DNA from: Flavobacteriales bacterium
Lineage (GTDB): Bacteria > Bacteroidota > Bacteroidia > UBA10329
Assembly: GCA_021741155.1 (NCBI GenBank)
Contig: JAIOYP010000010.1
Coordinates: 1 to 64,000, forward strand
DNA length: 64,000 nucleotides
Reading direction: 5' to 3'
The first letter of the stretch is position 1; each line of letters opens with the position of its first letter. Under the pieces are notes generated by a model. The model saw only the letters and a list, made by a program, of their open reading frames with translations, did no database searches and was not told the origin of the DNA. Made by a program: the position numbers and the translations under genes. Shown in pieces: positions 44,405-49,627 of this stretch.

Positions 44405-44904
44405 GTCCAGAAAGCACGGGTAAAACCATGCTTTGCGAGGAGTTGGCATCTCATTTCAATGGAGTTGTTGTTCCCGAATTTTCAAGGGAATATCTAACTG
44501 AGAAAGATGGACACTACGAAGAATGTGACCTTCTGATTATTGCTCAAAAGCAACTCGAACTCGAAAACCGAATAATTGCTAAAGCAAATGGGTCGATTTT
44601 TTGCGATACCGACATTCTAGTCATCCTCATCTGGCATCAATTCAAATACGGAAAGCGAAACAAGGAAATTGAAAAGCTTTTTGATAAGCAACAGCCGCGC
44701 AACTACTTAATCACGTATCCAGATTTGGAATGGATTGCTGATCCACTGCGCGAAAACCCGAATGACCTTTTGCAACTATTCAAGTTGTACGAGATGTCGT
44801 TAAAAACAATTGGAGCAGACTATCGCATAATTAAAGGGCAAGACGAGCAGCGTTTAACAAATGCCATCGAGGCCGTTTCTTCTTTTACACAGAGGGAAAG
44901 TTGA
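44371..44904 (+). CDS. NadR/AAA_28-type P-loop kinase
   Basis: P-loop ATPase of 177 residues resembling the ribosylnicotinamide kinase half of NadR (AAA_28 group). Walker A is GPESTGKT near residues 12-19. Later motifs are EFSREYL and FCDTD, typical of the NadR kinase lid and Walker B. It lacks the HTH and adenylyltransferase domains of full NadR. The start at 44371 lies inside the pnuT gene (34-base overlap), indicating coupling. Paired with the transporter it would trap the imported vitamin by phosphorylation: thiamine if the locus is a B1 locus, or nicotinamide riboside otherwise. Confidence 0.8.
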   Translation: MEEGKEIFACVGPESTGKTMLCEELASHFNGVVVPEFSREYLTEKDGHYEECDLLIIAQKQLELENRIIAKANGSIFCDTDILVILIWHQFKYGKRNKEIEKLFDKQQPRNYLITYPDLEWIADPLRENPNDLLQLFKLYEMSLKTIGADYRIIKGQDEQRLTNAIEAVSSFTQRES

Positions 44905-44983
44905 GGGCCGGAGATTCACAGAGGAATCTACAGTGGTAGGCTTTTCTCTGTGTATCACTATTTCTCAAATTAAATCTCTCCCG

Positions 44984-45206
44984 AATGGTCGCAGGGCAAA
45001 CGCACTAAAAAAAATGATGACCTGTCTTTACGAAAACACACTTTTATGGCCACAGAAACACAGAATTCTCAGAATGGACACAGAAAATTTTTCTTTTCCT
45101 CTGTGAAAACCTCTGTGAGTTCTGTGTTTCTGTGGCTATCCCATGTTGTCCCTCACGTTTGGACGTGAATAAGGATAGTATAAAAGTTTAATGCGTTTGC
45201 CCTGCG
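44984..45206. repeat. Nested inverted-repeat element
   Basis: Outer arms at 44990-45008 and 45188-45206 (CGCAGGGCAAACGCA core) pair over 19 bp with one mismatch. Inner arms at 45049-45065 and 45120-45136 (GCCACAGAAACACAGAA) pair perfectly over 17 bp. The inner part is filled with CACAGA/TCTGTG motifs, as in the repeats at 12.2 and 46.6-47.2 kb. The 346-bp gap between the kinase and AtoE-type genes holds this element and no gene that I can see. It may be one palindromic element inserted inside another. Confidence 0.75.
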
Positions 45207-45250
45207 AATGGTCGGGACAAGTTGTGCAATAATCTGCGCATATTTGAAGC

Positions 45251-46639
45251 ATGAGCTTCTCATCGACTATCGAAAAAACCTTCAAAGCATTATTGCCAGC
45301 GCCATTCACCATTGCAGTGGTATTGACCATTGTAACGATGGTTTTGGCTTTTACTCTCACATCATCTCAGTTAACAGGAATTGACCGCGTAATTGAAGTT
45401 TTTGGCTTCTGGGAATCTGGTATTTGGAATGCTCCACTGCTAGTTTTTGCCATGCAAATGATGTTGATGTTGGTTTTGGGCCACACGTTGGCGCTGACCA
45501 AACCAGTAGATTCCGTCATCAGCTTCGCAACACGATTCTGCACAAGCACAGCCAATGCCGCAGCAATCGTCACTTTTCTCACCGTTCTGGTTGCGCTTTT
45601 TAATTGGGGATTGGGGCTAATTTTCGGAGCCATTCTCGCGCGAAAAGTGGGCGAACATGCCGTTAGAAATAATCTAGAACTGAATTATCCATTGATTGGA
45701 GCGGCAGGTTATTCGGGGCTGATGGTTTGGCATGGCGGCATATCTGGTTCCGCACCTATAAAAGTGGCCGAAGAAGGTCACATCTCTACTTTGATGTCAA
45801 ACATCGTTTCTCCAGAACAACTCCAGCTCTTACCCGACCCTGTTTCATTCTCAGAAACGGTATTTGGCTCGATGAATATTGCGGCAACTTTACTCGTAGT
45901 AATCGTTCTGCCAGCCTTTATGTACTTCATGGGAAAACGCTCATCTACAGGAGCATTTCTTCCTTTGACTAAATCAGATTTAACTTTAGAATCTATAGAC
46001 GTTTCAGGCGCAGAAAAATTAGATCATTCGCGGTTTTTCGGACTGGGAATTGGCCTCATCATCTCTGTTTATTGTACCTACTTGGCGGCAAATAATTTCT
46101 CTACGAGCGGATTTGGATTCATCACTCCAAACTTTATCAATCTCTTGCTTTTGGGAATGTGTCTTTTGCTTCACCGAAGCTTTTTCAAATTCCTTAAAGC
46201 CATTGACGAAGCTATCGGAGGCGCTTCTGGAATACTCATTCAATTCCCCTTGTATTTCGGCATCATGGGCATTATGACCAGCTCTGGATTGGTTCAACTT
46301 TTTTCAGACTTTTTCGTGAACATTTCAAACGAAATCACCTTTCCGATATTCACTTTTATTAGTGCTGGAATTGTGAACATTTTCGTTCCGAGTGGGGGCG
46401 GACAATGGGGTGTTCAAGGTCCAATCATTCTGCAAGCAGCCATGGAACTTGGCGCAAACATTCCAAAAAGTATCATGGCGTTGGCCTATGGTGACCAATT
46501 AACAAACATGCTTCAGCCATTTTGGGCTCTTCCGTTGCTTGGAATCACTGGTCTGAAAGCCAAGGAGATTCTGCCATATTCTGTGGCGTTGATGGTGGTC
46601 GGGGCAATTATTTACGTTTCTGTTTTACTTGTGTTTTGA
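45251..46639 (+). CDS. AtoE-type short-chain fatty acid transporter
   Basis: Inner-membrane transporter of the AtoE (short-chain fatty acid) family, 462 residues with about 12 hydrophobic segments. Family features include FWESGIWNAPLLVFAMQM near residues 49-66, FNWGLGLIFGAILARKVG and the re-entrant-like loop VPSGGGQWGVQGPI. AtoE in E. coli imports acetoacetate and other short-chain acids. No acetoacetate catabolic genes are near, and it does not belong visibly to the thiamine set. It lies between two palindromic elements. Confidence 0.88.
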   Translation: MSFSSTIEKTFKALLPAPFTIAVVLTIVTMVLAFTLTSSQLTGIDRVIEVFGFWESGIWNAPLLVFAMQMMLMLVLGHTLALTKPVDSVISFATRFCTSTANAAAIVTFLTVLVALFNWGLGLIFGAILARKVGEHAVRNNLELNYPLIGAAGYSGLMVWHGGISGSAPIKVAEEGHISTLMSNIVSPEQLQLLPDPVSFSETVFGSMNIAATLLVVIVLPAFMYFMGKRSSTGAFLPLTKSDLTLESIDVSGAEKLDHSRFFGLGIGLIISVYCTYLAANNFSTSGFGFITPNFINLLLLGMCLLLHRSFFKFLKAIDEAIGGASGILIQFPLYFGIMGIMTSSGLVQLFSDFFVNISNEITFPIFTFISAGIVNIFVPSGGGQWGVQGPIILQAAMELGANIPKSIMALAYGDQLTNMLQPFWALPLLGITGLKAKEILPYSVALMVVGAIIYVSVLLVF

Positions 46640-46640
46640 G

Positions 46641-47154
46641 TTATTACACAGAGATGAAAAGGAGTTTTAGAGATGCACAGAGAGAACAATAAAGGATAGG
46701 GCCACATTGAATTTTAGAGATGTACGGAGAGAACAATAATAGAAACGAGCTTACTGGACTTATTATAGGTGCAGCAATAGAAGTACACCGCGAACTTGGT
46801 CCAGGTCTTTTAGAGTCTGTCTATCAATCTTGCCTGTTGATGGAACTGAAAGAGCTGGGACTTGGGATAAAGACAGAACTTCCCTTACCTGTCATTTACA
46901 AAGGAATTCAACTGGATCAAGGTTACAGAATAGATGTTTTGGTTGAGAATGAGGTCGTGGTCGAGCTAAAAACGGTTGATAGGCTGATTGATGTTCACAC
47001 AGCGCAGATATTGACCTATATGAGACTTGGGAAATATCCGCTAGGACTATTGATTAATTTCAATGTCAAACTTCTCAAAACTGGAGTAAGGCGATTCGTT
47101 ATTTGACCCACTCTCTGTGAATCTCTAAAACTCCTTTTCTTCTCTGTGCAATAA
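46641..47154. mobile_element. Candidate mobile element: GxxExxY gene in 44-bp inverted repeats
   Basis: The left arm 46641-46684 begins TTATTACACAGAGATGAAAA, and the right arm 47111-47154 is its reverse complement at 41 of 44 positions. The only gene between them encodes a GxxExxY protein. A 29-base stretch of the left arm (46664-46692) is repeated at 46711-46739, and this second copy contains the start codon. No target-site duplication and no transposase are visible. Non-coding palindromes with the same CACAGA-rich style occur at 12.2 and 45.0-45.2 kb. The sequence shows the structure directly. Mobility is inference. Confidence 0.6.
46720..47106 (+). CDS. GxxExxY family protein
   Basis: Small protein of 128 residues belonging to the GxxExxY family, a group with a PD-(D/E)XK nuclease-like fold. 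The naming motif is seen as [21 protein letters not shown]17..E21..H23 and G29..E33..Y36. The later segments [18 protein letters not shown] (D72, E83, K85) supply the D-E-K triad of the fold. The last residues form the helix-strand end TGVRRFVI. Its first eight residues, MYGENNNR, are encoded by the repeat arm itself. The stop codon is 4 bases before the right arm, so the gene fills the element. Biological role is not established. Confidence 0.9.
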
Positions 47155-47174
47155 CCATAGAATCCATAGCTTTA

Positions 47175-47251
47175 CCGCCAATCAGGGGTGTCCGAGAGTC
47201 GGGCTGAGATAATACCCTACAACTTGATCCAGGTAATACTGGCGGAAGGAG
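47175..47251 (+). promoter_or_regulatory. TPP riboswitch
   Basis: Thiamine pyrophosphate riboswitch (THI element). The conserved parts read GGGGTG, a P3 stem TCCGAGAGTCGGG, CTGAGATAATACCC, then CTTGATCCAGGTAATACTGG with the P5 stem CCAG/CTGG, and GCGGAAGGAG. The 3' end touches the ATG at 47252, and a P1 pairing of ATC (47181-47183) with GAT (47251-47253) would include the start codon. TPP binding should therefore block translation directly. Confidence 0.92.
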
Positions 47252-49627
47252 ATGAAAAGACAACTTTCTATTGTAGCGTTATGCCTAAGCGCTTTAAATA
47301 TTCAGGCTCAGAGCATTTCGGGAAACGTTTATTCAGCATCGGATAGCTTGGCTATTCCGGGTGTTAACGTTACCGTTTTGGGAACGTTTAGCGGCACATT
47401 TACCGATGCCGAAGGCAAATTTGACATCCGTTACGGAAAGGCTGATTCAATAAAGATCAACATCTCGTTCATCGGTTTTAATGAGCAAGAAATCGCAGTG
47501 GTTGCAGGCGAAGAAAAGCTCCATCAAGTTTACCTAACCCCAACGTCTTATGAGAAAGATGCCGTGGTTGTAAGTTCAACTCGCGCCAACAGGAACACCG
47601 CCACAGCTTATACCGATGTTAACTTAGAAACCATCGAAAGCAGAAATTTTGGTCAGGATATTCCCGTTTTATTAGAATTAGAACCAAGCGTTGTTTCCAC
47701 TTCGGATGCTGGCGCTGGTGTCGGCTACACTGGTATTCGAATTAGAGGAACAGATCCAACGCGTATTAACGTAACGTTGAATGGAATTCCAATCAACGAT
47801 TCGGAATCGCATGGCGTTTTTTGGGTGAATATGCCCGATTTAGCTTCAAGTTTAGACAATATCCAAGTTCAACGTGGCGTGGGAACAAGCAGCAATGGCG
47901 CTGCTGCTTTTGGCGCCAGCATCAACATGCAAACCAATACGGTTCGTAAGAAATGGTATGTAGAAACCACCAATGGTTACGGCTCGTTCAATACTTGGCG
48001 CCACACTGTTTCGGCAGGCTCAGGACTCATTGCCAACAAATTCACGGTGGATGCTCGTTTTAGCAGAATTTCTTCTGATGGCTACATCGACAGAGCCACT
48101 TCTAGCCTTTGGTCTTGGTATGCTTCGGCTGCCTATCATGGCAAGAAAACCATGATTCGATTTAATGCCATTGGCGGTAGAGAACGAACGTATCAATCGT
48201 GGTACGGAACGCCTCAGGATTCGCTTAAAACCAATCGAACATACAATTATTACACGTACAAAAATGAGGTTGACAACTATGGTCAAGACCATTATCAGCT
48301 GATAATTGCGCACGAGTTTGACCGTAACTGGAACTTCAATTTGAACGGGCATTACACACGAGGAAAAGGCTACTATGAACAGTTTAAAAAGCAGGATGAC
48401 TTGGCTGATTATGGTTTGGAAGATATAATAGTGGATGACGATACGTTGACCACTTCAGACATAGTAAGAAGACGTTGGTTAGACAATCATTTCTATGGTT
48501 TCACCTTTGCGGTGACCTACACAGGCAAAAAACTGAACGCTACGTTTGGTGGTGGATGGAATCAATATCTAGGGAAACATTTTGGAGAAGTCATTCAAAC
48601 CCAATTCACAGAATATGAAGCGCTGAACCAGCGGTATTATGAAGATGATGCGCGTAAGAATGACATCAGCGTTTACATCCGAGCAAACTATCAAGTTCAT
48701 CCTAAAGTGAACCTATTTGCCGATTTGCAGCACCGCACAATTGAATACAAATTTGTTGGACCAGAGGCTGATTTATTTGGTCGAATCAAAAACACACAGC
48801 AAAGCATTAACTGGCATTTCTTCAACCCAAAGATTGGTTTCAACTTCGACCTAAATAGCCGAAACCGTGTTTACACTTCCCTAGCAATGGGAAACCGCGA
48901 ACCAGCTAGAAAAGACATCATAGAGGCTACGCAATTTTCGCGGCCCAAGCACGAAACACTCTACGATTGGGAATTGGGTTATGAGCGAAAGTCGCGCTCC
49001 TACTCCATCGGACTCAACGCTTTTTGGATGATTTACCAAAATCAACTTGTTCCAACGGGAGAAATTAACGATGTGGGTGCATACACGAGCCAGAATGTTG
49101 ATTGGAGCGACCGCTACGGAGTGGAATTGATGTGGAGCGTAAACATCCTCAAGAACTTGAATCTGGCTGGAAACTTTACGTGGAGCCAAAGTAAAATTTG
49201 GAATTTTACAGAATACGTGGATGATTACGATAATGGTGGACAGGTTGAAATAAACCACGGATTGACGGATATCGCTTTCTCTCCGAATTACATCGCTACC
49301 GCAAATTTGACTTACGAGCCGATTAAGAATTTGGAAGCTTCGTTCATTACCAAATATGTTGGCGAACAGTTTTTAGACAACACCTCAAACCGAAACCGAA
49401 TGTTGAATGATTACGTGGTGAACAATCTTCGATTGAGTTACAAACTGAGTTGGAAATTCTTTCGAGAAATTGGTGTTGGTGTTCAGTTGAACAACATTTT
49501 CAATCAGTTTTATGAATCAAACGGTTACACCTTTTCCTATAAATATGGAGGAGAAACAACCACCGAAAACTTCTACTATCCGCAGGCGGGGTTCAACTTT
49601 ATGACCATGCTGACGGTGAAGTTCTGA
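47252..49627 (+). CDS. TonB-dependent receptor under TPP riboswitch control, probable thiamine receptor
   Basis: Outer-membrane TonB-dependent receptor of 791 residues. Signal peptide MKRQLSIVALCLSALNIQAQ. A carboxypeptidase-regulatory-like domain occupies about 20-105 (ISGNVYSASDSLAIPGVNV). The plug domain is near 115-230 (VVVSSTRANRNT, GYTGIRIRGTDPTRINVTLNGIP). A 22-strand barrel ends in the aromatic MLTVKF. The TPP riboswitch immediately upstream identifies it as a thiamine-family receptor, as previously described for Bacteroidota OMR1-type receptors. The signal peptide leaves no alternative ATG, so the start codon really abuts the riboswitch. Its partner genes for inner-membrane transport are 3 kb upstream. 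Confidence 0.92.
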   Translation: MKRQLSIVALCLSALNIQAQSISGNVYSASDSLAIPGVNVTVLGTFSGTFTDAEGKFDIRYGKADSIKINISFIGFNEQEIAVVAGEEKLHQVYLTPTSYEKDAVVVSSTRANRNTATAYTDVNLETIESRNFGQDIPVLLELEPSVVSTSDAGAGVGYTGIRIRGTDPTRINVTLNGIPINDSESHGVFWVNMPDLASSLDNIQVQRGVGTSSNGAAAFGASINMQTNTVRKKWYVETTNGYGSFNTWRHTVSAGSGLIANKFTVDARFSRISSDGYIDRATSSLWSWYASAAYHGKKTMIRFNAIGGRERTYQSWYGTPQDSLKTNRTYNYYTYKNEVDNYGQDHYQLIIAHEFDRNWNFNLNGHYTRGKGYYEQFKKQDDLADYGLEDIIVDDDTLTTSDIVRRRWLDNHFYGFTFAVTYTGKKLNATFGGGWNQYLGKHFGEVIQTQFTEYEALNQRYYEDDARKNDISVYIRANYQVHPKVNLFADLQHRTIEYKFVGPEADLFGRIKNTQQSINWHFFNPKIGFNFDLNSRNRVYTSLAMGNREPARKDIIEATQFSRPKHETLYDWELGYERKSRSYSIGLNAFWMIYQNQLVPTGEINDVGAYTSQNVDWSDRYGVELMWSVNILKNLNLAGNFTWSQSKIWNFTEYVDDYDNGGQVEINHGLTDIAFSPNYIATANLTYEPIKNLEASFITKYVGEQFLDNTSNRNRMLNDYVVNNLRLSYKLSWKFFREIGVGVQLNNIFNQFYESNGYTFSYKYGGETTTENFYYPQAGFNFMTMLTVKF

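Follow-up and report, generated by a model that had tools for sequence, protein, structure and literature searches.

We found that a GxxExxY gene in a Flavobacteriales genome lies between two inverted arrays of a short DNA word, and that GxxExxY genes from many phyla are flanked in the same manner. We lean slightly towards the reading that these genes and arrays form a REPtron-like pair, in which a predicted nuclease of probable RecB/Cas4 fold would recognize, cut and spread dispersed repeats. The observations behind it are the anatomy of the cassette, its recurrence across phyla, the covariation of protein and word, the co-occurrence of gene and repeat, the purifying selection that the gene is under, and two copies whose homology stops at about the arms. 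Together they suggest a widespread gene-plus-repeat element of a kind undescribed so far.

In the proposed mechanism, the GxxExxY gene is bracketed by two inverted arrays of the word that its product most likely recognizes (here CACAGAG), and the same arrays are scattered genome-wide without the gene, mostly as solo arms and sometimes as hairpin pairs. The protein would bind the arrays and cut or process DNA there, and arm-bounded DNA, with or without the gene, would occasionally be copied to new sites – a route of spread that we liken to the presumed spreading of REP repeats by TnpA-REP (RAYT).

A GxxExxY gene fills an inverted-repeat cassette

The window, a 64,000-nucleotide stretch of contig JAIOYP010000010.1, contains the cassette and its surroundings as follows.

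44883..44985, no strand assigned: gene-less copy of the same repeat type (outer limits set by eye)
45051..45137, no strand assigned: second gene-less hairpin, with CACAGAA/CACAGAG words (limits by eye)
45251..46639, plus strand: short-chain fatty acid transporter, upstream neighbor outside the element
46640..46684, plus strand: left arm, outer GTTATTACACAGAG, inner CACAGAGAG, core CACAGAG-N22-CACAGAG
46709..46739, plus strand: partial repeat of inner left-arm sequence (90% to 46662-46692), containing the start codon
46720..47106, plus strand: GxxExxY / PDDEXK_3 gene, 128 aa (TIGR04256, PF13366)
47111..47155, minus strand: right arm, inverted copy of the left arm (42/45)
47174..47267, plus strand: TPP riboswitch, downstream neighbor outside the element
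47252-49627, plus strand: TonB-dependent receptor, downstream of the TPP riboswitch and outside the element

The initial annotation had described inverted arms matching at 41 of 44 positions. The match is confirmed and slightly wider, with two 45-nt arms (46640-46684 and 47111-47155) that are 93% complementary and agree at 42 of 45 positions. Three further claims also held. The stop codon of the GxxExxY gene (47104-47106) ends 4 nt ahead of the right arm; the N-terminus is encoded in arm-like DNA, since the start codon falls within a 90% direct repeat (46709-46739) of the left arm and the bases just past it (46662-46692); and the cassette lacks a transposase, as no open frame of at least 60 aa other than the GxxExxY gene is found between the arms. 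On the upstream side, the transporter stop codon directly abuts the left arm.

The inverted-repeat cassette around the gene is real and not a product of chance. Its arms score 39, against a maximum of 15 across 99 control intervals, and a 25-nt outer arm pattern (up to three mismatches) has two matches in the window and none in 100 shuffles. The gene-less copy at 44883..44985 holds CACAGAG-N22-CACAGAG on the plus strand (44888-44923) and a degenerate inverted partner, CTCTGTG, at 44946-44952. No rRNA match was found within 44700-47400. Downstream, the position of the TPP riboswitch (47174-47267) ahead of the TonB-dependent receptor suggests thiamine uptake.

GxxExxY is a predicted small nuclease

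By profile match, the window gene is a clear member of the GxxExxY / PDDEXK_3 family (TIGR04256, 150.7 bits against a cut-off of 35, E 1.9e-44; PF13366, 147.8 bits against a cut-off of 22, E 2.1e-43). Residues invariant across 46 aligned GxxExxY proteins include E32, D72, E82, K84, Q96 and Y100. The alignment thereby contains the D, ExK and QxxxY residues of RecB/Cas4/lambda-exonuclease-type PD-(D/E)XK nucleases; D72, E82/K84 and Q96/Y100 presumably correspond to those of the RecB/Cas4 group.

An AlphaFold2 model of the window protein (pLDDT 93.4) was compared with the PDB using Foldseek. Ranks 1-4 are chains of SSO0001, which we take to be a Cas4 (E 2e-3 to 5e-3, probability 0.96-1.00, TM 0.40-0.52), followed by lambda exonuclease and AdnAB, with RecE further down and splicing endonucleases also in the list; no fold match fell under E 1e-3. 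Sequence searches of the window protein found no solved structure and no PHROGs match. The best reading of the model and the residues is that GxxExxY is a small predicted nuclease of the RecB/Cas4/lambda-exonuclease fold, which it would share with those enzymes along with the D, ExK and QxxxY residues, whereas it differs from them in being a stand-alone 128-aa protein.

Cas4 itself has four iron-sulphur cysteines. Across the 46 proteins, C38 is the one cysteine in a column that is invariant or nearly so, and GxxExxY therefore lacks a Cas4-type iron-sulphur site. This, together with neighbors that are a transporter and a TonB receptor rather than a CRISPR setting, rules out Cas4 membership; the PADLOC Cas4 match to the window protein is weak (E 0.004).

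The GxxExxY gene is under purifying selection: dN is far under dS in all seven pairs computed, including a 94%-identical pair within one genome, G015 (dN 0.03, dS 0.39).

Inverted repeats accompany GxxExxY genes across phyla

We called an inverted repeat where the local inverted-repeat score between the flanks was at least 16. The window's genome encodes five GxxExxY genes, and all five lie between inverted repeats (scores 19 to 39) that use different words: CACAGAG, CGCAAAG/CGCGGAG, CGCGGAT and CACAGAT. Arms thus differ by word family, and a single arm sequence for all loci was rejected.

Inverted-repeat flanks were found at 44 of 52 GxxExxY loci (the five of the window's genome and 47 from class members), compared with 0 of 99 in-locus control intervals. 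Among named genomes, the best 80 of 163 loci gave 68 with inverted-repeat flanks, compared with 8 of 584 control intervals. Arms therefore track GxxExxY genes far beyond chance, a link that the initial annotation had raised; a clear inverted repeat is absent at 8 of the 52 class loci and 12 of the best 80 named loci. Those best 80 of 163 carry 14 phylum names (two rows are without a phylum), and by hand count no phylum among the 14 lacks a GxxExxY locus with an inverted repeat. All loci were chosen by best score rather than randomly, and flanks were counted from the profile or tblastn match and may therefore include some codons of the gene. Flanks wrongly paired from different loci reach the threshold in 9.3% of cases because loci share words.

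Two other gene families, TIGR02436 and GIY-YIG, were rejected as negative controls since they have inverted repeats of their own (24/30 and 16/30), and for this reason cold-shock genes served as the control, with inverted-repeat flanks at 2 of 30.

Phylum labels change 22 times over the GxxExxY tree, which is weakly resolved, and such changes are by themselves not proof of transfer. Identical GxxExxY proteins occur at L286 and L289 (records named Nitrotoga and Flavobacteriaceae) and at L262 and L267 (Flavobacterium and Lentimicrobium); these pairs, one of them across phyla, may reflect transfer or binning errors.

Arm words follow protein relatedness

The arms are arrays of CRCnDAK words (such as CACAGAG, CACAAAG and CGCAAAG), mostly 8-11 nt apart. 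A CRCNDAK word is present in both arms of 107 of 128 GxxExxY arm pairs, but in both arms of just 1 of 24 four-helix-bundle pairs and 1 of 16 GIY-YIG pairs. The commonest words are CACAGAG, CACAAAG, CGCAAAG and CGCAGAG, and the most frequent spacing is 9 nt, followed by 10, 11 and 8. When arms were typed by their nearest neighbor, 124 of 128 GxxExxY and 14 of 16 GIY-YIG arms were typed correctly; four-helix-bundle arms were typed poorly (12/24).

Arm words follow the relatedness of the GxxExxY proteins. Across 128 loci, protein identity correlates with arm 4-mer similarity (rho 0.48, 0/1000 permutations), and the correlation persists when syntenic copies are thinned to 89 loci, pairs are limited to different genomes and GC is partialled out (rho 0.42, 0/1000). 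It is also seen inside the single genome G015 (13 loci, rho 0.29, 138/10000 permutations). Particular words go with particular proteins: five loci of G007, G014 and G015 have arms of ACGAA(T) words, and their proteins are 44-72% mutually identical and at most 41% identical to any other; proteins from Methylococcales, Sedimenticola and Desantisbacteria form one supported clade and have ATGAAG arms in common.

Genomes with the gene hold more repeats

The GxxExxY gene is present in 128 of 198 genomes of the class, and these 198 genomes together hold 4689 CACRGAK pairs, compared with 482 for the reversed pattern. Among the 128 gene-bearing genomes, 52 have a repeat excess of at least 20, as do 3 of the 70 gene-less ones. 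In families with both kinds of genome, gene-bearing genomes hold more repeats in 24 of 26 (0/5000 within-family shuffles), and one genome with five GxxExxY genes has 292 word pairs.

Nine of the 70 genomes without a PF13366 gene above the cut-off still have a repeat excess of at least 10. They include G098 (100% complete, excess 54), G067, G103 and G068. A laxer family search of the nine returned nothing above the cut-off and one match below it, so that an overlooked gene is not borne out.

The arm repeat is dispersed in the window's genome and in part of its genus

We looked for the window's arm across its genome (G000) and a genus set of nine genomes. With up to one mismatch, TTATTRCACAGAG occurs at 40 sites in G000 and the reversed pattern at 3; the arm is dispersed, which excludes a repeat confined to the cassette. 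Thirty of the sites were read out, giving 22 full arms and 8 with the outer word only. Under a strict test, 3 of the 22 full arms have an inverted arm within 720 bp, 2 of them being the window cassette's own, and some other sites have degenerate inverted partners by eye. In three genus genomes, 7 of 30 arm-core sites fall within open frames of 120 aa or longer, although such frames make up 77% of the loci. Direct tandem arrays of arms with TTCGCTACGCTCAT-like spacers occur at L049-L051, at the end of one contig (G000:C67), and at L043-L044 on another (C57).

Across the genus, CACAGAG-N20-24-CACAGAG, a pattern that also catches some arrays of another CACAGAG type, has 29 copies in G000, 41 in G008, 19 in G004 and none in the other six genomes, three of which are 70-83% complete. 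The arm core and the cassette behind the transporter were found in the same three genomes. A simple calculation puts the probability of such a match at 1 in 84, a figure weak alone and less telling if G000, G008 and G004 are one clade, as they may be; the transporter trees left their order of gains and losses unsettled. The GxxExxY loci of the genus were partly read, with one locus each in G005, G006 and G007. At the site of the window cassette, G004 has three tandem direct left arms before the gene (L070/L095), and G008 has a complete gene-less hairpin there (L066/L094).

Of the 19 core copies in G004, 10 are spread over four places with a MITE-like element and 3 are within the cassette, which leaves 6. 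The gene-less CACAGAG hairpins that were read in this genome (L311, L314 and L320, at different sites) are inside an element with its own ends, read as CTGATTCCCC...GGGGAATCAG and also given as CTGATTCCCCCAAAGTTT...AAACTTTAGGGGAATCAG, with L326 showing the left end. This element with its own terminal repeats is probably a MITE carrying the CACAGAG repeat, and because the hairpins are carried by it, we rejected them as general evidence for gene-driven spread.

These copies bear on the best-surviving alternative, which we nonetheless regard as unlikely: that the arms are dispersed repeats in their own right, moved by other means (replication slippage, MITEs or another enzyme), with the gene as a passenger caught between two inverted copies. 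The scarcity of inverted partners in the strict test (3 of the 22 full arms among 30 sites) would fit such cargo, as would the MITE-like element around about half of the G004 core copies and the repeats of some gene-less genomes. Independent repeats would not, however, be expected to have one grammar across phyla, to covary in their words with the GxxExxY protein within and between genomes, or, in this genus, to have their core found only where the cassette was found. A nuclease paired with repeats that it would recognize is the reading that we prefer for these features.

The cassette was probably copied as a unit in one genome, and the window copy appears resident

The initial annotation had suggested an autonomous element that uses the nuclease-like protein for mobility or maintenance. 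This is partly supported: besides the link of arms, words and repeat numbers to the gene, G015 points to the cassette as a copied unit. This genome has 18 GxxExxY matches, of which 14 were fetched and 13 of the 14 have inverted repeats. Two of its copies encode proteins of 94% identity at unrelated sites and share a 483-bp DNA match at 89.6%. The homology spans 915-1397 in both loci and the arms 930-1393; the pair thus shares DNA only about from arm to arm, so the cassette is the unit that was copied. In a second G015 pair (91% identical), the arms on both sides are of the CAC type in one copy and of the CGC type in the other.

A window copy that hops by itself was not supported. The window gene is 84% and 78% identical to its G008 and G004 orthologues, about the same as the transporter (82% and 77%), and dS is saturated at this site. 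Judged from these sequences, the window copy looks old, vertically inherited and not recently mobile.

Its distribution in the genus is patchy. The upstream transporter is present in seven of the nine genomes, with no transporter match in G002 and G005. Behind it, the cassette is found in G000, G008 and G004 and is absent in G006, G003 and G007; in G001, TTACAAAGAG follows right after the transporter stop and is perhaps a cassette remnant. A cassette present in all relatives is thus ruled out, the seven transporter-bearing genomes comprising three with the cassette, one with a possible remnant and three with none. The downstream gene at this site is the TonB receptor in G000 and G001 and, in G004, G006 and G008 and judged by eye in G003 and G007, a different gene, which is Nramp-like in G006. 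Target duplications, which the initial annotation had asked to look for, were not seen by eye at the L292/L296 ends or at the transporter site, among loci that include no close filled/empty pair.

Elsewhere, 207 pairs of loci share both flanks, mostly at one Flavobacterium site and the ALDH site, and some across different families. In L263 (Flavobacterium glaciei), the Flavobacterium-site cassette (17 loci) lies between BatD and TPR genes, in what looks to us like a Bat operon. The ALDH site (7 loci, four family codes) has an aldehyde dehydrogenase gene on either side in L030. The ALDH-GxxExxY-ALDH junction occurs twice in one bin, in the diverged copies L029 (G000:C12) and L030 (G000:C55), which reflect either paralogy or a contaminating contig. 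Such conserved junctions, together with a window site about as diverged as its neighbor gene, fit a resident rather than a jumper.

A further alternative is a resident function, in which a nuclease useful to the host in defence, repair or genome upkeep would stay at fixed sites, with arms that regulate or guide it. It would draw on the junctions conserved at the 17 Flavobacterium and 7 ALDH loci, on purifying selection and on the weak similarity to Cas4 (E 0.004), but it would leave unexplained why a genome with five GxxExxY genes has 292 word pairs, why the G015 pair lies at unrelated sites and why presence is patchy within one genus; we consider it improbable. The REPtron-like pair remains the reading that we favor.

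Words rather than pairing appear conserved at one site

At the Flavobacterium site (17 loci), paired arms score 24 and mispaired arms 25, with paired arms better in 6 of 17. That paired and mispaired arms score alike points to conservation of the words rather than the pairing here. Paired arms outscore mispaired ones in 7 of 7 loci at the ALDH site and in 1 of 3 at the site of the window cassette (3 loci), and smaller sites are mixed. Base pairing as the feature that is kept is thus not supported at the Flavobacterium site, though it is at the ALDH site.

The weakest alternative, and to us a very improbable one, is an RNA element whose arms pair in the transcript so that RNase III removes the cassette from the message, as happens to 23S rRNA intervening sequences, the gene being the passenger of a tolerated RNA insert: the long, near-perfect arms in the window, the several cassettes that lie between co-directional genes and begin close to or directly at a stop codon (judged by eye, uncounted), the ALDH arms and the terminal inverted repeats and ORF of 23S rRNA intervening sequences (IVS; PMC4990558, in excerpt) would fit it, but the Flavobacterium arms and the location of the window cassette between protein genes speak against it.

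Relation to known systems

In excerpts from a study of REPtrons (PMC8266576), a usually resident nuclease gene lies beside a short dispersed intergenic repeat, often in inverted pairs, and the repeat has co-evolved with the protein. Most such genes are single-copy and give no sign of moving by themselves, and repeat abundance often correlates with whether the gene is present. The likeness to these TnpA-REP/RAYT systems lies in a cassette gene beside dispersed repeats whose abundance is tied to the gene, with nine exceptions. They differ in enzyme, a HuH (Y1) transposase there and a PD-(D/E)XK fold in GxxExxY, and in repeat, GTAG-tagged palindromes there and arrays of 7-nt words here. Since enzyme type and repeat type both define REPtrons, membership proper is excluded. 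More tentatively, we entertain the broader possibility that GxxExxY proteins are the recognizing and spreading enzymes of a very widespread class of short bacterial repeats, the CRCnDAK arrays. With four-helix-bundle and GIY-YIG proteins they would make up at least three parallel, unrelated protein-repeat systems, each with a word grammar of its own, under a general principle that RAYT/REP would merely exemplify.

MITEs and insertion sequences resemble the cassette in their terminal inverted repeats and gene-less derivatives, but the cassette has no transposase, inspection by eye found no target duplication, and its arms are mostly solo.

The 23S rRNA IVS have terminal inverted repeats and an ORF, and excerpts from a Coxiella paper (PMC4990558) call them selfish and propose mobility. 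The cassette has the same short layout, with one ORF enclosed by terminal inverted repeats, but the ORF of the IVS encodes an S23 four-helix bundle, whereas the cassette encodes a nuclease-family protein and has another word grammar. With a different protein family and a location between protein genes, the window cassette does not belong to the IVS.

GxxExxY genes are common (128/198 class genomes), yet of the open-licence papers searched three contain the family name or Pfam accession, one of them with a mention of the domain in passing. Among the listed titles of open-licence papers on RAYT, IVS and REP-like repeats, none describes a GxxExxY/repeat pairing, and none of five typical repeat words was found in that literature. 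If the nuclease recognizes the words, this would account for a large, unassigned protein family as well as for part of the short repeats between genes. It would also add an enzyme unrelated to RAYT to the REP-like lifestyle, and make the question open to direct testing with one 128-aa protein and one 45-bp oligonucleotide.

The two families set aside as controls have repeats of other kinds. Four-helix-bundle (TIGR02436) genes (L120-L149) have inverted repeats at 24 of 30 loci, with the words TTAGGTATTAGG, AGTTATTAGTTG and AAGTTCGAAGTTC and a period of about 8 by eye, and the 23S rRNA IVS may be one case of this four-helix-bundle/repeat pairing. GIY-YIG genes (L150-L179) have inverted repeats at 16 of 30 loci, with many TGTCAnnCCGAGCGnAGTCGA-type arms and some longer palindromes.
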